Part shown: positions 1 through 32,101 of the stretch, piece after piece
Layout of the letters: every line of letters begins with the position of its first letter
Numbering within the stretch: position 1 is the first letter of the stretch
IMG/VR virus record: IMGVR_UViG_3300042541_000210
Coordinates: 1-44,140 of that record
Origin: a virus
Direction: 5' to 3' (one strand)
DNA length: 44,140 nucleotides
The notes under the pieces: model-generated
Seen by the model: the letters and a program-made list of their open reading frames with translations, nothing else
Told to the model about the DNA's origin: nothing
The model's database searches: none
Program-made: the position numbers and the translations under genes

Positions 1-51
1 CCGCTGTGTAACGGATCAAAATCCGCCTGTAACAAGAATTACTCTATTCAT
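1..51 (-). pseudogene. 5' end of a cytidylyltransferase-like nucleotidyltransferase gene, cut by the window edge and apparently frameshifted
   Basis: Read leftward from the ATG at 51-49, the codons give M-N-R-V-I-L-V-T-G-G-F and then an in-frame TGA. If one T of the TTTT run at 18-21 is skipped, the reading becomes GGF-D-P-L-H-S-G. That is the N-terminal nucleotide-binding signature of the RfaE/cytidylyltransferase family (GGFDPLHxGH), which transfers a nucleotide to a sugar or alcohol phosphate. The start overlaps the stop of the HNH gene as ATGA. A diverged copy of the same first codons lies at 731-787. The extra T could be a sequencing or assembly error near the contig edge, a real inactivating mutation, or a +1 frameshift site. 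Only 17 codons are visible, so the substrate cannot be inferred. Confidence 0.6.
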
Positions 52-713
52 TGATTACCACCCCCTTTTGTTGTTGTAACTCGGCCTTTAACCCATCCGC
101 TGGGTTGAGTTTCCTCGATGTAGTATTTTGTTTTACCTTCTGAATTATGATAAATTTTCATACCTTGTATTTTGTTACACTTCGTTCTACGTATCTCTAT
201 CTGATGAAGGTCAGTAAATTGTTTTTTGTTAGCTTCGCGCCAACGAGATAACGTTTCTTCAGAATATACTTTACCTTTCCGGGCAGGCATAATCTGTAAG
301 GCTCGTTTTTCTCTCATTTTTTGCCGTACTTCTTCGGAATGTTTTTTTCCGTAATATGGATTGTTGCTGCCTTTTAGGTTATTACCTATAGTAGCTTTTG
401 TTTCTTCTATTATAGATTCATAAATTTTAGATGATATTTTATATCTCTGTTGGTATTGATTTTCTCTGTTCATCATAGTTCTTATAGCATAAGACATTTT
501 TACTTTGTTGTGTCCTTCTGTCATCTTAACCAATAACCTATGGCAAATAAAATGTTCCCTGGCAGATAGTTTAACTAAATTTTCGTTTTTGTTTGATCCG
601 CCCATACTCTTAGGAATAATATGATGTTTTTCTATATACCCAGTTAATGGATTTAATTTTCTATTTTTAATAATTTTATAATACAATAATGTATATTTGT
701 TTTCGATAAACAT
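48..713 (-). CDS. HNH homing endonuclease with NUMOD3-type DNA-binding motifs
   Basis: This 221-aa protein is a free-standing homing endonuclease. An HNH nuclease module spans about residues 29-58 (H30-H31, then N-E-N-L and H54/H58), in the style of phage HNH proteins. A NUMOD3 motif (G-S-N-N-P-Y-Y-G-K-K-H-S-E-E) lies at about 115-137, with a degenerate second copy at 145-165 (G-K-V-Y-S-E-E-T). NUMOD3 repeats bind DNA in GIY-YIG and HNH homing enzymes. The ATG at 713 follows an AAGG ribosome-binding site and a late-type promoter at 732-739, so the cassette carries its own expression signals. It is flanked by two diverged copies of the 5' end of a nucleotidyltransferase gene, so it probably targets that gene. 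Such genes usually cut endonuclease-free alleles and spread by repair. The target is inferred from position. Confidence 0.88.
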   Translation of the reverse strand: MFIENKYTLLYYKIIKNRKLNPLTGYIEKHHIIPKSMGGSNKNENLVKLSAREHFICHRLLVKMTEGHNKVKMSYAIRTMMNRENQYQQRYKISSKIYESIIEETKATIGNNLKGSNNPYYGKKHSEEVRQKMREKRALQIMPARKGKVYSEETLSRWREANKKQFTDLHQIEIRRTKCNKIQGMKIYHNSEGKTKYYIEETQPSGWVKGRVTTTKGGGNQ

Positions 714-730
714 ATAATTTCCTTATATGT

Positions 731-787
731 TTATTTATCTAACTTAGGGTCAAATCCACCTGTAACAAGAACAACCTTATTTAACAT
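731..787 (-). pseudogene. Truncated duplicate of the nucleotidyltransferase N-terminus upstream of the HNH cassette
   Basis: The ATG at 787-785 opens an 18-codon reading frame, M-L-N-K-V-V-L-V-T-G-G-F-D-P, then K-L-D-K and a stop. The first 14 residues are homologous to the frame starting at 51 on the other side of the HNH gene (V-V/I-L-V-T-G-G-F-D-P), with several synonymous differences at DNA level. Homology ends immediately after the GGFDP codons, which marks the left junction of the inserted cassette. The start overlaps the 3' end of the methyltransferase gene by 11 bp, as expected if the methyltransferase and nucleotidyltransferase were once adjacent, translationally coupled genes. Confidence 0.7.
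732..739 (-). promoter_or_regulatory. T4-type late promoter (GATAAATA) for the HNH gene
   Basis: GATAAATA on the minus strand lies 18 bp upstream of the HNH start codon. It matches the NATAAATA late-promoter class of T4-like phages, and the same octamer recurs before other genes in this window. It lies inside the truncated 5' gene fragment at 731-787. Confidence 0.6.
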
Positions 788-1676
788 ACCGCCCCTTGGC
801 AGCTCTGAGTACGCCCATAGACTTCATCTGTTTGGTATTTTTAGTTACTGCCGGTGCTTGCTCTACAGTAGTCTTGTCAGACGCTACTACAGTGTTGACT
901 ATACCAGTTTCGCTGTGTACAGCTTCTGCTGGCACTTCGGTCCATTGTGGAATCCAATCTATGTAATAGTTTTCTTTATCCAACCAAGGATACAATAATT
1001 CTTCTTGGCGTACATGGCCAAATTTATTAAGACTGTTAATCACACTTGGATGTAGCAGTCCTGTGTTCATTAGATCAAACCAACTAGTGGTAGCAGGATC
1101 CATCGGTTTAACATCTGACTTGTATACCGCAATGTTGATCCACGGATCGTTAAACTTTTTCAACATATAAGCATCGCGGGTGTCAAACCCATTTACGGCC
1201 AGCATATAGATCAATGAAGCCGGTGTGTGATTGTAATAACAACCACTGTGGCTTCTACTGTAGTATTTGTTGTATTCAACACCGCTGGCTGTTGGCACGC
1301 TTAATACCAGCATGCCGTTAACGTTCATCTGTTCGTTCCACAGTTTTAATGTTTCTAACGGATTAGTGCTGTATTGTAATACATCGTGAGCAAATATTAA
1401 ATCAGCTTCGCGCGGTAAACATCGTTTGGTAAAGTCGCCTGTTAATTTGTGTAGGTTTGGTAAATTAGGGATATTAGCCAATTTGGCAGGGTCGTTATCA
1501 ATAGCCCAACAGGTATAGTTATAGGGCTCTGGACGATCGTCACGTGTTTCTAACGTAGCCCACCAAGTGATATCTTCACCGGTACCACAGCCTAGATCTG
1601 CGATAAACTTCAAACTATCTAAAAAACTATCATACTCACGTAGGCAGTTTAATATCATCTCACTGTGTCTAGCCAA
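777..1676 (-). CDS. Class I SAM-dependent methyltransferase
   Basis: The 299-aa protein has a Rossmann-type methyltransferase core. Motif I is D-L-G-C-G-T-G at residues 27-33, an acidic D-N-D follows the second strand at about 60-62, and a Methyltransf_11-like segment follows (A-H-D-V-L-Q-Y-S). The last ~80 residues are family-specific, with a Lys/Thr-rich tail. It should transfer a methyl group from S-adenosylmethionine, but the acceptor is not identifiable. It overlaps uvsY by 8 bp upstream and the broken nucleotidyltransferase start by 11 bp downstream, so it belongs to the same leftward transcription unit. With the radical SAM and glycosyltransferase-like genes nearby it may take part in small-molecule or glycan modification. 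That role is inference. Confidence 0.8.
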   Translation of the reverse strand: MARHSEMILNCLREYDSFLDSLKFIADLGCGTGEDITWWATLETRDDRPEPYNYTCWAIDNDPAKLANIPNLPNLHKLTGDFTKRCLPREADLIFAHDVLQYSTNPLETLKLWNEQMNVNGMLVLSVPTASGVEYNKYYSRSHSGCYYNHTPASLIYMLAVNGFDTRDAYMLKKFNDPWINIAVYKSDVKPMDPATTSWFDLMNTGLLHPSVINSLNKFGHVRQEELLYPWLDKENYYIDWIPQWTEVPAEAVHSETGIVNTVVASDKTTVEQAPAVTKNTKQMKSMGVLRAAKGRYVK

Positions 1677-2124: not shown

Positions 2125-3368
2125 CGTTTAAATTCTTCCAGTAACCAAGGGAATGTTTGTTTCCAATCTAAATTTCTTCTACGATCAATTTCAGTTAAGT
2201 ATTCTAATAGTTTATGCTGTGTCGGTAAATCTTCTGTTGCTTGTTCTATATGTTTAACAATACCTAAAAATGTATCGCTAGCACTAGCAGGCATTAACTT
2301 TACTGTTTCTTCTATTGCCTGTTTGAATAGTGTGTAGTCAAATATAGTTGCTCGCAACACGTTATCTTCAAAGGGCAGTAAATTGTTCACATACCAATGT
2401 ATAGGTCTATGCTTATTCCACTCAACAAATTTACCTGCTAGCATAGGCAAAGTATTAATACTCAAAGAAGTAATCACACTCAATATACTTAAATGTAAAT
2501 ATTTCTGTGTTAGTAAGTATTGTACATTCTTTTCAAAAATATCGCAATCGAAACCGTGTCTAATATACTCTTGTTCTTGGCCCCAACAGTCTACACTGGC
2601 TAATATCTTAACCTGTTTGAGTTTGCCCTGGGCAATCATCTGTTTTACCCTAGCACAAAACTGTTCTAACTTGGTTGTTTTGAGTATCAGATTGCTGATA
2701 ATACTAACTTCTAACTTGGGATTAGGGTGTTGTTCTATATAATCAAACAGCCTATCTAGATCATCTTGAATAAACGGCTCACCACCAAGTATGTTTATAC
2801 GCTGTAGTTTGCTGTATCCTGTGTCTAACCACTGCCAAAACAACTCTACAAATTCATTGTATTTGTTGTCGCTATCGTCTGGATGGTATAACCCCGTAGC
2901 AGGTATTCCTACTGTGGGCACTAGTTTACCATGTATCCTGTTCTCTGTGGCAATGCGCGAACTTAAAGATTCTTCACAGTATAAACAGGCCAAATTACAG
3001 GTATTCTTAAAAAAAATTTCAAGTACGCTGGGATCAACTTGGGTTAGTGTAGAGTCAACATCAAGTTCTAGTGGATACTCATTGGGCACAGTATTTTGAA
3101 ATAGTCTGTCGCTAAGATTACTATGCTGTTCTATATCACGACAGTGCTCACACCCATCGCCGGGCCATTGGCCTTCTAGCATTAATTCTCTAGCCTTGAC
3201 CTTTTCGTCTGTGTTGTGAAAATTACCAAACGTGTCTGCTGTTAATTTTGAGAAACTAGCACGATGACAACTAGCAGTTTTTCCATTATTTAAATACAGT
3301 GTAGACCAAGACCACTTTAAGCGGCAGGCTGTAGCTGTATGTATAGGGAAAAACTTTTTATCAGACAT
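2106..3368 (-). CDS. Radical SAM protein with N-terminal twitch-type Cys segment
   Basis: The 420-aa protein has the canonical radical SAM cluster motif C124-x3-C128-x2-C131 (C-N-L-A-C-L-Y-C), which would ligate a 4Fe-4S cluster and cleave SAM. A G-G-E-P motif at 195-198 is typical of the SAM-binding second strand. The N-terminal 100 residues carry C15, C34 and a C73-x2-C76 pair (G-C-E-H-C). This resembles the auxiliary cysteine region of phage proteins annotated as twitch-domain radical SAM proteins. The start overlaps the stop of the 81-aa gene as TAATG. The substrate is unknown. It is one of three radical SAM genes within 9.4 kb on this strand. Confidence 0.85.
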   Translation of the reverse strand: MSDKKFFPIHTATACRLKWSWSTLYLNNGKTASCHRASFSKLTADTFGNFHNTDEKVKARELMLEGQWPGDGCEHCRDIEQHSNLSDRLFQNTVPNEYPLELDVDSTLTQVDPSVLEIFFKNTCNLACLYCEESLSSRIATENRIHGKLVPTVGIPATGLYHPDDSDNKYNEFVELFWQWLDTGYSKLQRINILGGEPFIQDDLDRLFDYIEQHPNPKLEVSIISNLILKTTKLEQFCARVKQMIAQGKLKQVKILASVDCWGQEQEYIRHGFDCDIFEKNVQYLLTQKYLHLSILSVITSLSINTLPMLAGKFVEWNKHRPIHWYVNNLLPFEDNVLRATIFDYTLFKQAIEETVKLMPASASDTFLGIVKHIEQATEDLPTQHKLLEYLTEIDRRRNLDWKQTFPWLLEEFKRCGIIK

Positions 3369-3617: not shown

Positions 3618-5180
3618 TTACACTCCTTCTGTTAGCATATTAGCTATTAAATTATCAAACTTTTCTTTAACTTCTAAATTTGAACTCTTAAAATGAACCA
3701 TTTCTCTGATATGATCCAGTAGTCGTTGTATTACATCAAACGAACGAGGATATCCAAGTTCTACACTTAACCTATTTGTTTCTAAAAATCTACGATACTT
3801 CTCGTGATTAGTTAGTCCCGGATTAGTGTCTGATGTCCATAGAGTATTTCCATACTCATTATTAAACAAATGAATGCCTAATTCTTCCTGCATGCCTGTT
3901 TCAGCCAATGGAGTATTACGTAAGTATACCATCGGTTCTGATAATACCAGCATGGTGATTGTTTCATCTATTAGATATTTTTGATAGCGTCTAAGCATAT
4001 TCAATGTATCGTGATGATCTTCTAATGTTTCTGTTGGGTAACCAGTGAACATTAATAAAGAATTTGTAATTTTATATTTAGAACACATAGCATAGTGATA
4101 GTCTATGTCTTCATTGCTAAACTTCTTACCCATGTGCTCACGCACTCTATCACTACCCGATTCGATACCTACTTCTAATCGATGACAGCCGGCTTGCTGC
4201 ATTAGTTCGTATAGATATTCTGGATGATGCTTGATTGGGCGCACAATAAATTGCCCGCTAAACTTTAACTGTTTAAACTCTGGGTATTGTTCTTGTAGTT
4301 GTATAATGTTCTTTAGTAGATCGATGAACTGTTTCAACGAGCCGTTGATTAAACTATCAGTAAAATGATATGTTAGGATACCTGTTTGTTGATAGTGATG
4401 TAGTAGCTCTTGACTAATGTTGTCGCCACTACGGAATCTAAACTTCTTCCAAATATTACCTACGTCACAGAATGTACATCTGCGCACACAGCCTCTACTG
4501 CCGGTTATACTAGCAATGGGTGTTCCTGTGTCATTAGCTGAACTAATATATTCTCTAAACTTAACTTTTTTATAGCTAGGAAATGTAAGACCATCTAGAT
4601 TGTCAATCTGCGGAACCCAATTTTCCCATTTGGCTCCTTTAACGTTTAATCCTAGTTCGTGCTGTCCTTTAAGGAATGCCTCAAATATATAGTCACCTTC
4701 ACCTAATACATAGTAGTCAAGTAACCCTTGGTCCATTAACTGCTTGCCCATAGTAACGTTAGGCTCTGTTTGATATCCTATGCCCGGGCCGCCAGCAATG
4801 ATAGTTGTGGTCATTTTTTCACGTATAGCTTGTGTGACTAGCTTTGCGTAAGGATGTTGTATAAAGCTCAAGACTGAAACAGCAATAAGGTCCGGATTGT
4901 ATGCTATGAGTTTGTCTACACCTGCTGATATAGCCTGTTTAACCTGTGCTAATAACTCAGGGTCAATGGTTACAAAATGGTCACCTTCAACGGGAACTAC
5001 AAACAGTCTTTCCCATAGACTAATGCCTAGAGCGTTCTTTACAATGATATTAAAGTCAAAGATATCATACTCTATGTCAAGTTTTTCACAAATGCCTGCT
5101 AGAAATGCGCTAGACGCAGGTGGGCGATCTACACTTAATAGTCCTGTTGATAGTACAGCTATTCGTTTGTAATTACTCAC
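3618..5180 (-). CDS. B12-binding-type radical SAM protein
   Basis: The 520-aa protein has two domains. Residues ~1-175 look like a B12-binding Rossmann fold (I-A-V-L-S-T-G-L-L at the start, I-I-A-G-G-P-G-I at ~127-134, Y-V-L-G-E-G-D at ~157-163). The DxHxxG cobalamin-ligand motif is not visible, so corrinoid binding, if any, may be base-off or absent. The radical SAM core follows with C231-x3-C235-x2-C238 (C-V-R-R-C-T-F-C) and a later E-V-G-I-E-S-G-S-D motif, typical of the class with B12-binding N-termini. These enzymes often methylate unreactive carbons or rearrange substrates. Its target is unknown. The start overlaps the upstream gene by 8 bp. Confidence 0.85.
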   Translation of the reverse strand: MSNYKRIAVLSTGLLSVDRPPASSAFLAGICEKLDIEYDIFDFNIIVKNALGISLWERLFVVPVEGDHFVTIDPELLAQVKQAISAGVDKLIAYNPDLIAVSVLSFIQHPYAKLVTQAIREKMTTTIIAGGPGIGYQTEPNVTMGKQLMDQGLLDYYVLGEGDYIFEAFLKGQHELGLNVKGAKWENWVPQIDNLDGLTFPSYKKVKFREYISSANDTGTPIASITGSRGCVRRCTFCDVGNIWKKFRFRSGDNISQELLHHYQQTGILTYHFTDSLINGSLKQFIDLLKNIIQLQEQYPEFKQLKFSGQFIVRPIKHHPEYLYELMQQAGCHRLEVGIESGSDRVREHMGKKFSNEDIDYHYAMCSKYKITNSLLMFTGYPTETLEDHHDTLNMLRRYQKYLIDETITMLVLSEPMVYLRNTPLAETGMQEELGIHLFNNEYGNTLWTSDTNPGLTNHEKYRRFLETNRLSVELGYPRSFDVIQRLLDHIREMVHFKSSNLEVKEKFDNLIANMLTEGV

Positions 5181-6852: not shown

Positions 6853-7881
6853 TTACGCTTTGTTTTGACGACTACGGATCATCGCTAGGATGTCTTCAGC
6901 ACGTTGGCCGCCAGCGGCTGGAGTAGCTACTGGTGCTGTTGGTGTTGGTTCGTCTGCTTCAAATGGAGGATTTTCGGCTATCGGAGCTACTACAGCAGCA
7001 GGTTGTGCTACCGGAGTACTTTCAACATGTTCACTAACAACTGCGCGATCACCTACCGGAGCTGCTGAAGTTGCTGAACCTGATGGAGCTGCAACCCCAC
7101 GTGGACGATAGTAAGCACCCCAACGTTCTGTGTCGTATGCTTGACCATCAACTGATGCTTCAAACATTTCTTTAATGACTTTTAACTCAGCATCACTTGG
7201 TTTCTTAGGTAAGAAATCACTTAGGTTGTGAAGACCGTTAGTGTCAATTGCTGTTGCTTCTTCTGAGGTTAGCGCACTTTCTTTACGTGACCATTTACTA
7301 GTACTATAGTCAGCATAACCACCTTTTGATGTTTTAGACACTGTAAAGTCTAGGCCACCTTGGTAGTCTGTTGGCAAGTTTTCTAACTCAGGGTCAAGTA
7401 GTGCTGACTTAACTAAGTTAAAAATCTGTGGACTAATAATAAATCTACGGATTGGGTTAGCTGGCGTGTTATCATCAGCTAGTGGATTGTCACGTACAAA
7501 GCCTTGGAACAAATATGATTTCTTTTTCCAATACTTACGACCCATTTCTTCTAAACTTGGATCCTTAAACCATGTACGCACTTCTGCTAGTACTGGACAT
7601 TGGTCACCGTACATTTCCACGCATGGTACTTGTACTGTAACTGGTTTACTATCTGGTTGACCTTTAACGCCCGCAAACGTTAAGTTGATCATTAGACGTT
7701 CTGCCCAAAAGAATGTATTCTTTGGATCTGCGTCTGGGAGGAATCTGATTCTTGCCGAAGTGCCTTCTGGAATGTTCCAGTGAGCGTAGATAGCGTTGTC
7801 GCCACCTTGTTGTGAATTACCTGAACCACGAGTTTCTTGTGCTTGTAATTTCGCACGAATTTCTGCTAATGATGTTGCCAT
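6853..7881 (-). CDS. 32: Single-stranded DNA-binding protein gp32
   Basis: This is the T4 gp32-type ssDNA-binding protein, about 342 aa from the ATG at 7881 (M-A-T-S-L-A-E-I-R-A-K-L). That start has an AAGGAAAA ribosome-binding site, so the longer upstream in-frame extension is rejected. It has the basic N-terminal region, the Y/F-rich OB-fold core (H-W-N-I-P-E-G-T-S-A-R-I-R-F-L-P-D) and a C-V-E-M-Y-G-D-Q-C segment in the place of the gp32 zinc site. A Pro/Ala/Glu-rich linker and a conserved short C-terminal helix follow, unlike the T4 acidic tail in composition. It coats single-stranded DNA in replication and recombination with UvsX and UvsY. Confidence 0.92.
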   Translation of the reverse strand: MATSLAEIRAKLQAQETRGSGNSQQGGDNAIYAHWNIPEGTSARIRFLPDADPKNTFFWAERLMINLTFAGVKGQPDSKPVTVQVPCVEMYGDQCPVLAEVRTWFKDPSLEEMGRKYWKKKSYLFQGFVRDNPLADDNTPANPIRRFIISPQIFNLVKSALLDPELENLPTDYQGGLDFTVSKTSKGGYADYSTSKWSRKESALTSEEATAIDTNGLHNLSDFLPKKPSDAELKVIKEMFEASVDGQAYDTERWGAYYRPRGVAAPSGSATSAAPVGDRAVVSEHVESTPVAQPAAVVAPIAENPPFEADEPTPTAPVATPAAGGQRAEDILAMIRSRQNKA

Positions 7882-7956
7882 GATGTTTTCCTTTATGTTA
7901 AGTTGGTCTTTAATATGCCTAAAACGTATAAGCATTTATATACTATACGCTATAAT

Positions 7957-7964
7957 TATTTATC
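7957..7964 (-). promoter_or_regulatory. Late-type promoter (GATAAATA) upstream of gene 32
   Basis: GATAAATA directly abuts the stop codon of the SGNH-like gene and lies 75 bp before the gene 32 start. A related TATAAATG occurs at 7933-7940. Together they could give gene 32 transcription independent of the upstream cluster. Confidence 0.5.
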
Positions 7965-8642
7965 TTACAAGAGATATTTTCGAATTTTTTCTACCAAAAG
8001 CATATAACCCTGTAGGTTAGGGTGTACATCGTTCCACTGTTGGTTAATAAGGTCAAATTTGGTGCTAGATTCTAACATTATTTGTTTAATTTCTGTACCA
8101 AACTTGAGCATAACTTCTACATTATCATTAAGTTGCGCAAACCACTCAAAGTCACTTAAGTACACATCTGTTGCTGTAGGTATTAGCAATTCTGTTATAC
8201 TAGGAACAGCCGGTATTAAATTGCTGTAATTATATATACTAGGATGTAGTTTACTCCAACCGCCTAAACAGATAATTGGTTTATTTAATCTGTTTAGCGT
8301 TGTGTATAGGTTATTGTAATATACATCTAAACAATGATCAATCGAATCAAATGTAAGTAAGTGTTTAAAAAATACGGGTCTTAGTTTCTTAAACCCATCT
8401 TTATGTTGACAATGCTCCCTAAACGGATCTGTTTGTAAAAACAGTATATGATCTGCTGTGTTACCTTTAATACGCTGTGCTATATTATTATTAGCATCTC
8501 CAGCAACACTGATGTTGGTCACAGTGTATCCCTGTGATTCTAATATAGTTTGAATTCCTTGCCCTGTAGCAGTATATACTCCATTCACAGTTTGATATAC
8601 GCCTATGCCCCAACTATCTCCAGCTAGCAGTATCTGTGTCAT
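7965..8642 (-). CDS. SGNH/GDSL hydrolase-like protein
   Basis: The 225-aa protein begins with I-L-L-A-G-D-S-W, the block I signature of SGNH hydrolases, with nucleophile Ser10. It ends with N-D-V-H-P-N-L-Q-G-Y, resembling block V, with His207. A G-D-A-N-N-N segment at ~48-53 could supply the Gly/Asn oxyanion residues. Block V normally has Asp three residues before His; here that position is Asn204 and the Asp is at 205, so catalysis needs testing. SGNH enzymes hydrolyse or transfer acyl groups on sugars and lipids. It overlaps the upstream glycosyltransferase-like gene by 4 bp (ATGA), pointing to a joint role in glycan acylation or deacylation. That role is inference. Confidence 0.65.
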   Translation of the reverse strand: MTQILLAGDSWGIGVYQTVNGVYTATGQGIQTILESQGYTVTNISVAGDANNNIAQRIKGNTADHILFLQTDPFREHCQHKDGFKKLRPVFFKHLLTFDSIDHCLDVYYNNLYTTLNRLNKPIICLGGWSKLHPSIYNYSNLIPAVPSITELLIPTATDVYLSDFEWFAQLNDNVEVMLKFGTEIKQIMLESSTKFDLINQQWNDVHPNLQGYMLLVEKIRKYLL

Positions 8643-21128: not shown

Positions 21129-21746
21129 TTAACCAGTAGTTGTTACACCTAACGTTCTAGCTACTGTACTACCAATACCTGTTTCTTCTGGAGTTTGTAC
21201 AGCATTGTCATAGCGGATTGTTAACGCAATAGTCATTGGATCATTTGTACTATAATCAGCATCGCCGTAATCAGCATTACTAATATAGCAACCATATAGT
21301 TCCCAAGTTTCAAGAACATTAACTTGATTTGCTCCGTTACCACCATCCAATACTTCTAGTTTAGTGATAAATTTATAGTCAATGCCGCTTGATGCGCTTG
21401 ATTGTTCCATAAAGTCGAATTGTTTTTGCATTTGCTCGCCAACACGTTTAGAAACACCGCCCGATGCGTCATCGCGCATTGTAACGGTAACTGTTTCCCA
21501 TGTTGGTTTGCCTGCTAAGTAGATCTTACTGTTGTAAACAGGGATTATAATTTCTTCAAAACTTAGTTTAGGACGAGTAAAGTTCATAACTTGTTTTGTT
21601 AATTCTGTAGTAGCCGGATCTACACCAAAGTTTTCAAAAGTTACGCGAAAGCGGAACTTTAATTTTGGCATTAACAGGCCTTGAGCTGATGCGCTTTGGT
21701 CTGTTGCTAACGGTACTGTAAATTTGCTTAATGACGCTGTTGCCAT
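21129..21746 (-). CDS. 19: Tail tube protein gp19
   Basis: This 205-aa protein is the major tail tube subunit, stacked as hexamers inside the sheath. Family features are the P-K-L-K-F-R-F-R-V-x-F-x-N-F-G strand near the N-terminus and the hallmark N-F-T-R-P-K-L-S-F-E-E-I-x-I-P-V-Y-N-S loop. W-E-x-V-T-V-T-M-R-D-D and the W-E-L-Y-G-C-Y-I-S-N-A-D-Y-G-D-A-D-Y-S strand pair are also present. Length is slightly above T4 gp19 (163 aa) because of N- and C-terminal extensions. It has its own TATAAATA promoter and terminator, fitting the high copy number of this protein. Confidence 0.95.
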   Translation of the reverse strand: MATASLSKFTVPLATDQSASAQGLLMPKLKFRFRVTFENFGVDPATTELTKQVMNFTRPKLSFEEIIIPVYNSKIYLAGKPTWETVTVTMRDDASGGVSKRVGEQMQKQFDFMEQSSASSGIDYKFITKLEVLDGGNGANQVNVLETWELYGCYISNADYGDADYSTNDPMTIALTIRYDNAVQTPEETGIGSTVARTLGVTTTG

Positions 21747-21819: not shown

Positions 21820-24800
21820 TTATAATTGGGCTCCTGTACTTCTAATACGTACTGGAACATAGATGAACTCAATTGCTTTGACTGGTTTAATAGCAATATC
21901 AACATACAATTCATTACGATCAATACGATCCGGTGTATTGTTTGTTTCGTCACATACTACCAAGTAGTCGTATAAACCACGTTTAGCAACTACATCATTC
22001 AATACTGCTTCAAATGATGATTTAACTTGGTTACGAGTAATTGTATCATTTGGTTCAAATATGAACGGACGAGCAACTTTGTCTAATACTAAACGTAAGT
22101 AGCAAATTAAACGTGCTACGTTAACACGATCCATTGCGCTTGTCATTGGGCTACGAGTTTTTTGACCGTATGCTACTAGACCAACACCTGGTAATACTGT
22201 TAGCGGGTTAACTCTGTCTGCGTATAGTACATCACGTAGGCCAACTGTTACACCAATGCTACGGAAAATGCTTTCTGTAGTGTCAATATAACCAATTGCG
22301 CTAACGTTATCAATAACGCCACGGCGTACACCAGCAGGAGCAAACCATGGGTAACTAACATTATCACTACGGATGTATGTACGTAACATCATGTGTGATG
22401 CTGGAACTACTACGCTTTCACCACCTAAATCTGTACCAAATCCAGCTGGGTAGTAAACACCTAAATATTCACTGTTACTTACTAGACCTTTAGGACCGTT
22501 GTCTAATGCTAGGTTAGTATTTTTAATCCAAGGTTCAATATTAGAACTGTTTAGATCTAATGGACTATCACCAATGATGAACGCTGTTTGTTTGCGATCG
22601 TTGTTTAGTGTAATCATGTTTTGAATTAGTTCTGGGTAACCTGGGCAAACAATTAAGTTAAACTCTGTTTGCTCTTCACGTAACTCAGTACTTGATTCAA
22701 TAGCAGATTTCATTGCTTCAACGATAGTGTTGCGTTGTGCTTTGTGTCCAAAGTATGGAACAGCATCGCTATCAACACCACTATGTGAAACCCATGCGCT
22801 TACTACTGTGGGCTCTGGGCTTGCGCCTTTATGCCATGTGCTTTCAAAACGTTTAACATTGTAACCACTACGACGTGTATTAAACAATAACGCACCGCGT
22901 GGATATAATTGGTAATCAGGAGCATCTTGGTCTAAATAATCACTTAATGCTAGTGTACTGATAGCTACAGCATCTGCTGTAATTGGGTTAACTGTACCGC
23001 TAGTGTCCCAACGGGCATCAGCAAACACAATACCATCAACGTTAATTTGATCAGTATTATCAATTAATTCCCATGTTGCGCCATCATAGCGACGAATTAC
23101 TGGATAATTTTCTAAGTCACCTGTGTCAATCCATAGCTCGCCTGGTACTACTGGGCTTGAACCATCTGATTGTGTTGTTGGTTGTGTAGCACTTAGGATT
23201 GGGCCTTCTGAATCTGTTGCTGTTAAATCATAACCACGAGCGTCACTACCAACTTGTCTATATCCTTTCCAGCCATTTGTGCCATCATGAATCATAATGT
23301 CAACTTCTAATGGGCTGTTATAGTACCATAGTGTACCATCAGTTGGGTTGCTGTATGGAGCAGATACTGATGGTGTATAAACTAGATCTCTAAATGGACT
23401 AGCAAAGTACACGTCTGTATCAATTTCTTCTACGCCTGGTGCTGTGTTTAAACCAGCATCACTAATAGGAGTACCAGAACCTTCTGATAATTTAATTGTA
23501 CCACCAGCTAGGTGTGTAATGCTTACTGCTCCGCTTGATTCAACAGTAGCAATAACATCTCTTAAATTAGCACTTAAAATATCAGCTACGAATGATGAAG
23601 CAGTTGAACCGCTCATTGTGATTGTTGCTGATTGTGGTGTAATATTACCTGCTACACTTACTTCAATTACAAATGTTTCAGTTGGAGTAAATGATGGAGT
23701 AATATCTTGACCTGTAATTTTAAAAATACCAGCGGTATTTTTTCTACGTAGTTTAAATGTACCTTCAGCATTGTCCATGAATGTGCCAGTATTAACATCA
23801 TACTCTACATAGATAAAACCAGCTTCTAATGTGCCACCACCACCATTTGGATCTAATCCGTAAATTGCGGCATTATCATTAGCATATAATGGAGCACTTA
23901 ATGTTTCCCATGAAGCTAATGCTGAACTGTAGCGTTTGATACCAAAATTAGCACCGTTGCCGGTTGCTGATGTTTTAAACCATACAGAACCTGCCGGGCG
24001 TGTATTTGGAGCATCGCTTTCTCTCCATGCTGGGATATTACGATAGTCACTAAATTGGATTGTTGGACCGTTAAATGTCTGTGTATTAGATGTAAGTAAA
24101 CCTAGTTTAGCCGCAGCATCAACTCCGCCAATTGTAGTTCCTTTAGCAATAGTTACTTCACCATCGGCTGTAGTGCCGTTGCTTTCTGAGTTACGATCAA
24201 TACGAATTTCAATTTGACCAACGCTATTTACTGTAGCTTTTACGCCAGCAATACCAGATGAACTAATTTGTTGTGCTACGTTTGCTACTGTAGTACCAAT
24301 AAGTGTAATATTAGCACCGTTGATAACTAGTTTATCTCCAACGCTTAAATTAGTTGGATTAGATACTGTACCGGTTAATGTAACAACGTTACTTTCCCAT
24401 TCTTCAGTGCCTACTAAATTCCATCTATTTAAATAACCTTTTTGGTATATTGGGTTGTTGGTGTTTCTAGCAACTACAGCATATTCACCGATCGCACCAA
24501 TTGAAGATTTAGGAGTAGTACCATCTACATCATCCGCACTAGTAATTACGCGAGTTGATTGTAGAGTAAATCCTGTTCTTGCTGTGTTAAATTCGTATAT
24601 ACCAGCACTAGTAGCACCTAAATCTAACCAATATGTTCCATCAGTCGGAGTGCCAGTTGGGCGGATTGTTGTTCCTTCTAACTGTGCTAGGTCAACGTTT
24701 GCACGTTGGATATAAATTTGATTTGAAACGCCCAATGCGCTGTAAGCCGCTAACAAGCCGTACTCGTTACGCTCGTCGCCATGTATTGGGTTGTCTGATG

Positions 24801-25032
24801 CATCAACTTGGAATGTTGGTGTACCATATTTCAACACTAAATCGCGTTGACTGGTAATTTTTTGTAATTTACCAGCAGTAGCTAGTGTTGTGTAGGATGC
24901 TAGATCGCCGCCCGGTGTATCTTTATCTTGAGCAGTAGCAAGTAAAACATAAGCAACTGTGCCTGCCGCTGTTGGAGTATATTGACTTTCATCAATTACC
25001 GTTACCTGTACTCCTGGTGAAATTAGTGCCAT
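21820..25032 (-). CDS. 18: Tail sheath protein gp18, greatly enlarged
   Basis: This 1070-aa contractile sheath subunit compares with 659 aa in T4. The N-terminus (I-S-P-G-V-Q-V-T-V-I-D-E-S) and the C-terminal ~300 residues (W-F-A-P-A-G-V-R-R-G, N-P-L-T-V-L-P-G-V-G, R-P-F-I-F-E-P-N-D, final Y-V-P-V-R-I) are standard sheath core. Between about 115 and 740 lie extra beta-rich domains. There are five copies of a short motif of the type G-T-L-W-Y-(x)n-D-G-x-x-W (about 126-155, 343-378, 561-592, 627-656, 709-735) and two related inserts (about 213-300 and 451-520). In T4, such insert domains lie on the outer tail surface. Promoter TATAAATA, RBS AGAGGA. Confidence 0.95.
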   Translation of the reverse strand: MALISPGVQVTVIDESQYTPTAAGTVAYVLLATAQDKDTPGGDLASYTTLATAGKLQKITSQRDLVLKYGTPTFQVDASDNPIHGDERNEYGLLAAYSALGVSNQIYIQRANVDLAQLEGTTIRPTGTPTDGTYWLDLGATSAGIYEFNTARTGFTLQSTRVITSADDVDGTTPKSSIGAIGEYAVVARNTNNPIYQKGYLNRWNLVGTEEWESNVVTLTGTVSNPTNLSVGDKLVINGANITLIGTTVANVAQQISSSGIAGVKATVNSVGQIEIRIDRNSESNGTTADGEVTIAKGTTIGGVDAAAKLGLLTSNTQTFNGPTIQFSDYRNIPAWRESDAPNTRPAGSVWFKTSATGNGANFGIKRYSSALASWETLSAPLYANDNAAIYGLDPNGGGGTLEAGFIYVEYDVNTGTFMDNAEGTFKLRRKNTAGIFKITGQDITPSFTPTETFVIEVSVAGNITPQSATITMSGSTASSFVADILSANLRDVIATVESSGAVSITHLAGGTIKLSEGSGTPISDAGLNTAPGVEEIDTDVYFASPFRDLVYTPSVSAPYSNPTDGTLWYYNSPLEVDIMIHDGTNGWKGYRQVGSDARGYDLTATDSEGPILSATQPTTQSDGSSPVVPGELWIDTGDLENYPVIRRYDGATWELIDNTDQINVDGIVFADARWDTSGTVNPITADAVAISTLALSDYLDQDAPDYQLYPRGALLFNTRRSGYNVKRFESTWHKGASPEPTVVSAWVSHSGVDSDAVPYFGHKAQRNTIVEAMKSAIESSTELREEQTEFNLIVCPGYPELIQNMITLNNDRKQTAFIIGDSPLDLNSSNIEPWIKNTNLALDNGPKGLVSNSEYLGVYYPAGFGTDLGGESVVVPASHMMLRTYIRSDNVSYPWFAPAGVRRGVIDNVSAIGYIDTTESIFRSIGVTVGLRDVLYADRVNPLTVLPGVGLVAYGQKTRSPMTSAMDRVNVARLICYLRLVLDKVARPFIFEPNDTITRNQVKSSFEAVLNDVVAKRGLYDYLVVCDETNNTPDRIDRNELYVDIAIKPVKAIEFIYVPVRIRSTGAQL

Positions 25033-30284: not shown

Positions 30285-31691
30285 ATGGCCGCACTTCAAC
30301 AATTCTTTTATGATGCGCAAATTGAACGCTTTTTGGTTCAATTTATACGTATGATCAGTGGTTTCCAAGTAGAATTTGGCGCAGATCAATCAGGTAATAC
30401 AACCTTACAGCGTGTACCTGTATACTACGGCGATGGCAGTAAACAAGTAATGAATATTATTCAAAATAATAGCGAAAACACATTACCAACAACACCCGCT
30501 ATGACTGTGTATATTAGTAATCTTAACTATGATCGAGATCGTGTTCAAGACCCTGCTTACATAGGCAAAATGCATGTGCGTCAACGTTACTACAACGAAG
30601 CTACTCAAGAATACGAAAATCGTCAAGGTAATGCGTTTACTATTGAGCGATCAATGCCAGTTCCGTATACTATAGAATTAAAAGTAGATATTTGGACTAG
30701 CAACACTAAACAAAAATTACAGTTAATCGAACAAATAGTTCCGTTATTTAATCCTGCTTTTGAAATACAAAGCACAGATAACTACATTGATTGGACTAGT
30801 CTGAGTGTTGTTTATTTAGATAGTCCAAATTGGTCTAGTCGTAGTATCCCAGTTGGCACCGAGAATCCAATTGATGTTGCTACATTGACATTTAAATTAC
30901 CTGTGTGGATTAGTCTACCAACTAAAGTTAAAAAACTTGGTGTTATTCAAAAAATTATTGCTAGTATACACGATGCGCAAGGTGATCTAAGCACAGAAGT
31001 ATATAATAACTCTAATATCTTAGGCATGCGTCAATACTTTACCCCAATGGATTACGGATTGCTGTTAATTGGCAATAACTTAACCTTGCTTAAAGTACAA
31101 GACGTCGAAACTCCTAGAGAACCCACACTAGAAACTCCTACTAAAATTGGTACTAGAGATCAATGGCGTAATTTAATTAATGTCTACGGTGTATTAGAAA
31201 ATGGTATTAGTCAAATTAGACTATTACAGGAAGATGGCATTACTGAGATTGTGGGACAAGTCAGCTATCACCCAACTGATGAATTGTTAATGATTTTTAA
31301 TCCCGACATAGATACATTACCAAGCAATACCCTGTCAGCTATCAATGCGATTATTGATCCTACTAAAGCCACAGTCGATGCTAGCATACTCAGTCCAGCT
31401 ACCGGTACTCGCTACCTAATACTTAAAGCAATTGGCAGTTGGGATAATCTGCCTGGCGAAGGTGCTATTGCTTGGCGCGGTTCAGATAATAGAGACCTAG
31501 TAGCCAACGCAAACGATATTATTGAATACAACGGAACTCATTGGAATATTGTATTTGACAGCCAGCAAGAAGATAATGTACAATATGTAAGTAATCTAAC
31601 AAGTGGGACGCAATATAAATGGAATCTCAATCAGTGGGTGAAAAGCTGGGAAGGCGAATACAAAAACGGCCAATGGACTCTCGTCCTTTAG
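30285..31691 (+). CDS. 15: Tail terminator / proximal sheath stabiliser gp15, C-terminally extended
   Basis: In the 468-aa protein, residues 1-~230 follow T4 gp15. They show F-F-Y-D-A-Q-I-E-R-F at the start, R-V-P-V-Y-Y-G-D, M-T-V-Y-I-S-N-L-N-Y-D and P-Y-T-I-E-L-K-V-D-I-W-T-S-N. Then come I-E-Q-I-V-P-L-F-N-P-A-F and a T-L-T-F-K-L-P-V-W strand. In T4 gp15 forms the hexameric ring that ends the tail and meets gp13/gp14 at the neck. T4 gp15 has 272 aa; the extra ~200 residues include two aromatic D/N-G-x-x-W motifs (~393-468) of the type decorating the sheath. Cotranscribed with the gp14-like gene, and the Nudix gene starts within its 3' end. Confidence 0.85.
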   Translation: MAALQQFFYDAQIERFLVQFIRMISGFQVEFGADQSGNTTLQRVPVYYGDGSKQVMNIIQNNSENTLPTTPAMTVYISNLNYDRDRVQDPAYIGKMHVRQRYYNEATQEYENRQGNAFTIERSMPVPYTIELKVDIWTSNTKQKLQLIEQIVPLFNPAFEIQSTDNYIDWTSLSVVYLDSPNWSSRSIPVGTENPIDVATLTFKLPVWISLPTKVKKLGVIQKIIASIHDAQGDLSTEVYNNSNILGMRQYFTPMDYGLLLIGNNLTLLKVQDVETPREPTLETPTKIGTRDQWRNLINVYGVLENGISQIRLLQEDGITEIVGQVSYHPTDELLMIFNPDIDTLPSNTLSAINAIIDPTKATVDASILSPATGTRYLILKAIGSWDNLPGEGAIAWRGSDNRDLVANANDIIEYNGTHWNIVFDSQQEDNVQYVSNLTSGTQYKWNLNQWVKSWEGEYKNGQWTLVL

Positions 31692-32101
31692 AAAGTGTAG
31701 GCGCTTTTATCTATTGTACCACAACCAAACGGTATCTATTCCTATTGCGTAACAGTAGTAAGTATTCTGGCACGTGGGGAGTTGTTGGTGGAAAGATAGA
31801 ACAGGGCGAGCGTATAATTGAAAGTCTGTTGCGAGAGATACGCGAAGAGCTTGGTGGAACAATTCAAGACTCAAAACTTATTCCTATAGAAAAATTTACC
31901 AGCGACAACGGTAACTTTACATATCACACATTTATTGCGCCAGTAGATACCGAATTTGTTCCTGTGTTGAACAACGAGCATAGAGGTTACTGCTGGGTTG
32001 AGTTAGAAGACCATCCTAAGCCCTTACACCCGGGAGTTTGGCGTACTATTAATTTTAATGCCGTTGCGGCTAAGATTAAAACGCTAGAAGCAATACTATA
32101 G
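31673..32101 (+). CDS. Nudix hydrolase
   Basis: The protein is 142 aa from the ATG at 31673, which lies inside the gp15 reading frame. The frame is open further upstream (31619), but the domain begins directly after this ATG (M-D-S-R-P-L-E-S-V-G-A-F-I-Y). The Nudix box G40-x5-E46-x7-R54-E55-x2-E58-E59-x-G61 is complete, so Mg-dependent hydrolysis of a nucleoside diphosphate linked to another moiety is expected. The overall pattern is closest to GDP-mannose or NDP-sugar type Nudix enzymes, which would fit nearby glycosylation genes, but substrate cannot be read from the box. It overlaps gp15 by 19 bp and the leftward gene at 32096 tail-to-tail by 6 bp. Confidence 0.9.
   Translation: MDSRPLESVGAFIYCTTTKRYLFLLRNSSKYSGTWGVVGGKIEQGERIIESLLREIREELGGTIQDSKLIPIEKFTSDNGNFTYHTFIAPVDTEFVPVLNNEHRGYCWVELEDHPKPLHPGVWRTINFNAVAAKIKTLEAIL

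Follow-up and report, generated by a model that had tools for sequence, protein, structure and literature searches.

We analysed a linear virus contig of 44,140 bp, the whole of which we call the window. Judged by its gene content, which includes a UvsY-like protein, terminase- and tail-like open reading frames (ORFs, recognised by eye) and T4-type late promoter boxes, the window is from a T4-like phage. The features described here lie on the minus strand (Table 1). In minus-strand order they run from a uvsY-like gene (2124-1669) through a methyltransferase gene, the truncated start of a nucleotidyltransferase (NTase) gene and an HNH/NUMOD3 gene to a second NTase start, within which the contig ends. 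The initial annotation had described the HNH gene as flanked by two diverged NTase 5′ ends and the methyltransferase gene as overlapping the older start. Both descriptions hold, and the overlap is 11 nt.

Table 1. Features of the HNH cassette and its surroundings in the window.
Feature	Position	Strand	Basis or remark
Methyltransferase	777..1676	-	Pfam Methyltransf_31; upstream of the target; NTase neighbour in HNH-free relatives too
Relic: the NTase 5′ end that the recipient had before, truncated after GGFDP (MLNKVVLVTGGFDPKLDK, then stop), 18 codons	731..787	-	Sequence
GATAAATA, late-promoter-like box (T4-type) of the HNH gene	732..739	-	Sequence; predicted promoter
HNH/NUMOD3 homing endonuclease, 221 aa	48..713	-	phrog_655, E 8e-40; NUMOD3
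GGGGGTGG, ribosome-binding-site-like, for the replacement NTase start	58..65	-	Sequence; G-rich counterpart in frameshifted relatives
Replacement NTase 5′ end, ATG at 51, ended by the contig edge	1..51	-	Full gene in locus L003
Shift site TTT TGA, with UUU in the P site and UGA in the A site	16..21	-	Sequence; predicted frameshifting
Span corresponding to the mobile unit, from GACCC in the relic (left edge) to 17 nt beyond the shift (right edge, window base 1)	1..752	-	751-bp identities, L003/L085 and L091/L127

The HNH protein belongs to the phrog_655 homing endonucleases and matches NUMOD3 above cutoff. Residues H30, H31, N45, H54 and H58 are invariant in an alignment of 14 HNH relatives. 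Solved structures gave a weak match at best (E 0.056), and the AlphaFold model has a mean pLDDT of 67. The ORF has its own start and stop, and the whole cassette unit has no intron match in Rfam. By these features the gene is a free-standing homing endonuclease gene, outside any self-splicing intron or intein, and its product is predicted to cleave DNA.

A late promoter for the HNH gene, as the initial annotation proposed, is plausible. The box GATAAATA differs by one base from TATAAATA, which sits 26 and 40 nt upstream of two other minus-strand ORFs in the window (21129-21746 and 21820-25032). Several related cassettes carry TATAAATA exactly. Elsewhere in the window (31619-32101, plus strand), a NUDIX-like ORF (GGKIEQGERIIESLLREIREELGG, recognised by eye) overlaps the end of a preceding 468-aa ORF in another frame.

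Allele types and movement of the cassette

Methyltransferase relatives without an HNH gene have an NTase gene shortly downstream, with one in-frame GGFDP (rarely GGFDC) start. Each HNH-free relative has a single NTase 5′ end, downstream of a methyltransferase or uvsY-like gene. No HNH-free relative carried the tandem 5′ ends that would have spoken against the initial annotation's reading. HNH relatives occupy the same place in other phages, and diverged HNH genes keep the two-copy layout in many of them; the layout is therefore not a chance resemblance. Occupation of this one fixed site is sporadic, with empty alleles among relatives.

The cassettes fall into two families. HNH relatives at 59-71% identity, together with others at 100% in different hosts (L085 and L086), carry TTTTGA. 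In the sister family (family B; HNH identity ~55%; L097, L101 and L240-L247), the same Phe codon is changed to Tyr (GGATAY, encoding GGYDP) and there is no frameshift. Across all fetched loci we distinguished 189 in-frame Phe haplotypes, 16 frameshifted and 8 Tyr haplotypes. Of 20 HNH-bearing haplotypes, 19 have a change in the Phe codon or beside it (13 TTTT, 6 Tyr), and HNH-free alleles are unaltered in 86 of 90, a linkage that is partly trivial because the altered site lies within the mobile unit. The twentieth, L248, is the sole HNH-bearing in-frame Phe allele and has DPCHSG, absent from all other in-frame haplotypes.

Several further alleles and HNH genes are recorded here as observations. 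Two HNH-free loci (L193 and L211, NTase start near position 3000) encode GGYDP (GGGGGATAY) and share GTACAGGGGGATAY with family-B cassettes; they are possibly resistant alleles remaining after cassette loss. Eight others (L016, L017, L020, L022-L024, L074 and L075) are HNH-free and encode GGFDCLHSG (GACTGC) instead of GGFDP, possibly as natural target variants. HNH modules are shuffled in the alignment: L095, of the frameshift type, has a family-B C-terminal part, L248 joins a frameshift-type middle to a family-B end, and L090 is the reverse in the middle. The DNA-recognition parts of these proteins seem to recombine. In one HNH-rich phage record (G013, 147,839 bp, which includes L247), the window HNH protein has six matches, several of them distant from the NTase gene.

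Sequence comparison indicates that the cassette is mobile and is transferred horizontally, independently of the host genome. Within each of two pairs of unlike phages, a tract of exactly 751 bp that begins at GAYCC in the old 5′ end is identical, with flanks at 42-70% identity. In the first pair, L003 (the window type) and L085, the tract comprises 38 bp upstream of the HNH start and 713 bp from that start; its left edge is exactly GACCC of the upstream copy and its right edge lies 17 nt past the start of the GAT codon. Identity outside this tract is 63.7% upstream and 70.5% in the NTase gene. The second pair, L091 and L127, has a tract of equal length with the same right edge, NTase genes at 58.6% identity and unrelated upstream DNA. 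Several cassettes moved recently, with HNH genes 99-100% identical in unlike hosts. These tracts and the single-copy relatives bear out the proposal that the cassette is mobile, that its insertion point lies at the GGFDP codons, a short way into this sugar-nucleotide enzyme gene, and that a replacement 5′ end arrives with it.

The origins of the two copies can be read at L086, where the upstream copy equals the empty allele L011 through GGCGGATTT and the downstream copy is that of a different lineage, L003. At the 5′ end the relic thus matches the recipient and the replacement matches the donor, as the initial annotation had anticipated. On a tree of 190 NTase bodies the frameshift label requires 14 changes, at least 9 of them forced by well-supported branches: frameshifted alleles are rare and scattered among in-frame relatives. 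The shift site lies inside the mobile unit in all frameshifted cassettes.

Upstream of its present cassette, L127 also retains the scar of an earlier one belonging to family B. Ahead of its HNH gene (start at 5001), positions 4841-5000 hold two tandem relic 5′ ends, the first ending GGCGGATAT and followed by GGGAGAATTATTAAAAAATG, which resembles the family-B cassette tail. This looks like two successive invasions of one gene.

A frame-anchored pattern search of IMG/VR found 27 frameshifted stretches, and the same type of pattern was absent from prokaryotes (one genome from each of 84,980 species). We found no methyltransferase relative among INPHARED phages. NTase relatives there are all below 60% identity, and the two that we checked are annotated with starts upstream of the motif.

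The extra T and the +1 reading frame

The initial annotation held that both copies encode GGFDP. This is true of the upstream copy, but the downstream copy (ATG AAT AGA GTA ATT CTT GTT ACA GGC GGA TTT TGA TCC) has TTTT (run 21-18) instead of TTT, so that codon 12 (18-16) is a UGA stop. DPLHSG continues in the +1 frame (ACA GGC GGA UUU UGA UCC), in which GAT starts at 17. Longer contigs (L002, L003 and L070) have the same TTTTGA followed by a 236-codon body in the +1 frame, open from GAT through to the stop, with cytidylyltransferase-like and mannose-6-phosphate-isomerase-type cupin domains. In L003 the gene is complete, with the ATG and then the body at 7660-8367. The downstream frame is thus that of an NTase gene, as first proposed. 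An error at the contig edge or in the homopolymer was ruled out as the source of TTTT by its identity across many independent assemblies; the TTTTGA allele occurs in 16 distinct haplotypes from many samples.

Frameshifted genes share several features with prfB-type sites: UUU_UGA is present in 16 of 16 haplotypes, placing NUU_U before an in-frame UGA, and the bodies are open in the +1 frame. A Shine-Dalgarno-like GGCGG or GGAGG ends 1 nt upstream of UUU, rather than at the 3-nt spacing of RF2 genes (PMC5009743). The sites are mostly UGAU rather than UGAC, and UGAC is not enriched in frameshifted alleles (p = 1). Given the 1-nt spacing and the prevalence of UGAU, frameshifting at UUU_UGA may be inefficient. 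The first Gly codon before TTTT is GGC in 14 of 16 frameshifted and 62 of 189 in-frame haplotypes (p = 2e-5; Fisher p-values are descriptive because haplotypes are not independent), an excess that common ancestry may explain.

By sequence criteria the FRAMESHIFTED gene is alive. All 34 complete frameshifted loci, many of them mutual duplicates, keep full-length bodies of 236-249 codons. Across 11 frameshifted lineages, the Thr-Gly-Gly codons before TTTT vary at third positions only, and the eight codons after TTTT have the same periodicity when read in +1. Ahead of TTTT, the 0-frame segment has a pN/pS of 0.26, as expected of coding DNA. Decay, in the form of a lost start, stop or changed GGFDP, affects 8 of 17 relics and 0 of 17 replacements (p = 0.003). 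For 13 of 16 haplotypes, the stretch from the preceding stop to GAY has no start codon in +1, and internal initiation therefore cannot supply the N-terminus in these. A TTG in L146 (from the same record as the window type), L155 and L096 was considered as a +1 start and rejected, as its use would lose the Gly-Gly motif. In 14 frameshifted records searched, most of them incomplete, we found no second full-length NTase gene that could act as a backup; two frameshifted records contain a short, distant NTase-like match.

Some frameshifted genes persist without an intact HNH gene. The HNH gene is absent in four lineages (L142; L254/L260/L262; L256; L257/L259) and reduced to remnants in L123 and L131. 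Bodies are open in these genes, with a late interruption in L259 compared with its near-copy L257; L256 has no cupin domain, like some in-frame relatives. Cassette scars are present in L142 and L131, whose genes likely and clearly descend from cassettes, respectively. Such descent is unproven for L254, L256 and L257. The frameshifted NTase genes of these three loci (L254:3077; L256 and L257, both minus strand) lie in other genomic settings; the L256 gene adjoins what looks like a tRNA gene, and L256 and L257 have GGAGGA before TTTTGA.

Proposed mechanism and competing explanations

We consider it likely that the locus is a homing cassette: a single extra base would shield its replacement 5′ end from cutting, and +1 frameshifting at UUU_UGA would rescue that end. 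The HNH enzyme would most likely nick or cut phage NTase genes that lack the insertion, at their conserved TGGFDP-x-HSG codons. Repair would then copy a unit of about 751 bp, comprising the late promoter, the HNH gene, a ribosome-binding site and a complete replacement 5′ end, and would leave the recipient's own 5′ end as the relic. Because the recognised codons form an active-site motif and are not freely changeable, the replacement would carry one T inserted between the halves of the site (TTTGA to TTTTGA), which should prevent recutting. To restore the protein, tRNA-Phe would slip by +1 from one UUU onto the overlapping one while UGA occupies the A site. The initial annotation's one-step restoration of the gene thus stands insofar as a replacement is brought in, but restoration would require a +1 shift by the ribosome.

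The relic still contains GGNTTYGAYCC, and the enzyme must therefore presumably also read the right-hand half of its site. On this model, recognition by the enzyme covers the TGGFDPxHSG codons to either side of the insertion point. The relic retains the left half alone, and the replacement retains both halves, either separated by the extra base or with an altered Phe codon, so neither should be recut. On balance, we think it more likely than not that the one-base insertion and programmed +1 frameshifting serve as a self-immunity device whose recoding site outlives the endonuclease in several lineages. By the same reading, and with the same confidence, selfish DNA would have a repeatable route to creating programmed frameshifts.

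An unlikely alternative is that the extra T simply knocks out a dispensable NTase and that the body is open only because the insertion is recent. Plain UUU_UGA may indeed mostly terminate, and because of the recent transfers body dN/dS in frameshifted lineages does not measure selection after insertion; we have set it aside. A knock-out is hard to reconcile with full-length open genes persisting in the four HNH-free lineages, two other lineages having HNH remnants, with a coding-like 0-frame segment whose Thr-Gly-Gly is invariant, with decay confined to the relic and with an in-frame gene kept by the sister family. Marginally less probable still is a frameshift that arose primarily to regulate the NTase, for example by sensing RF2 or slow termination, with the HNH gene inserted later and protection as a by-product. 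Frameshifted alleles without HNH exist and RF2-type shift sites are regulatory in bacteria (PMC5009743), yet the alleles are scattered on the tree and travel with HNH genes, L142 and L131 bear cassette scars, and the sister cassette changes the same codon without a frameshift.

It is highly improbable that splicing or a long ribosomal bypass joins the two copies, with the upstream copy as a functional exon. Group I rules are formally possible, by eye, at GACCC-T / G-TTACAC, and in T4 gene 60 a homing gene does occur together with bypassing. However, the unit lacks an Rfam intron match, only about 70 nt lie outside ORFs, and the upstream copy is absent or startless in L092, L123, L131 and L142. 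Equally improbable is protection by synonymous recoding of the GGFDP region alone, the explanation first put forward. Wobble differences between the two copies exist, but natural targets vary at the same positions, which a spreading enzyme must tolerate, and the change shared among cassettes is one inserted T or, in the sister family, the Tyr codon.

Comparison with known recoding and homing systems

The origins of programmed frameshift sites can seldom be observed; in this case the site moves together with a selfish gene. An amino acid change serves the same end in the sister cassette, and scars reveal frameshifted genes that remain after endonuclease loss. Annotation pipelines will label such genes broken or misplace their starts. 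In the literature searched, which took in few subscription journals, we found no report of a homing cassette with a +1 frameshift.

As in bacterial prfB (RF2) genes, an early in-frame UGA follows a slippery NUU_U and the +1 frame contains the body; among natural RF2 shift sites UUU_U is rare, being used by a minority of prfB genes (PMC5009743). Unlike in prfB, the Shine-Dalgarno-like stimulator is weaker and closer (1 versus 3 nt), UGAC is not required and the product has no autoregulatory role. The endonuclease belongs to the same protein family as the PHROG 655 HNH homing endonucleases, whereas none of the 19 checked loci where more distant relatives of the window HNH gene occupy other sites has a duplicated 5′ end.

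In layout, the closest parallel is the mobile ORFs of fungal mitochondria that replace C-termini, as in Allomyces atp6 and Glomus atp6, atp9, cox2 and nad3 (PMC3630166). There too an endonuclease ORF inserts, a foreign gene end is supplied and the native end becomes an unused duplicate. The mitochondrial hybrids are described as in phase or as simple replacements (PMC3630166); the present case differs in its phage host, its HNH enzyme, the replacement of the 5′ end and the frameshift within it.

In function, the closest parallel is T4 mobA and gene 60, in which an HNH gene adjoins a 50-nt translational bypass (PMC5009743, PMC2988022). Both systems pair an HNH homing gene from a T4-like phage with a recoding element in the target gene; the element is thought to protect that gene from cleavage, and the protein would still be made by translation across it. 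Here a single inserted nucleotide with presumed +1 frameshifting takes the place of the bypass, the 5′ end is duplicated, the target is an NTase-cupin gene rather than a topoisomerase gene, and the gene is not split into two proteins. Should the immunity role be confirmed, T4 gene 60 would cease to be an isolated case, and translational recoding would offer homing endonucleases a general means of targeting codons that are not free to change.
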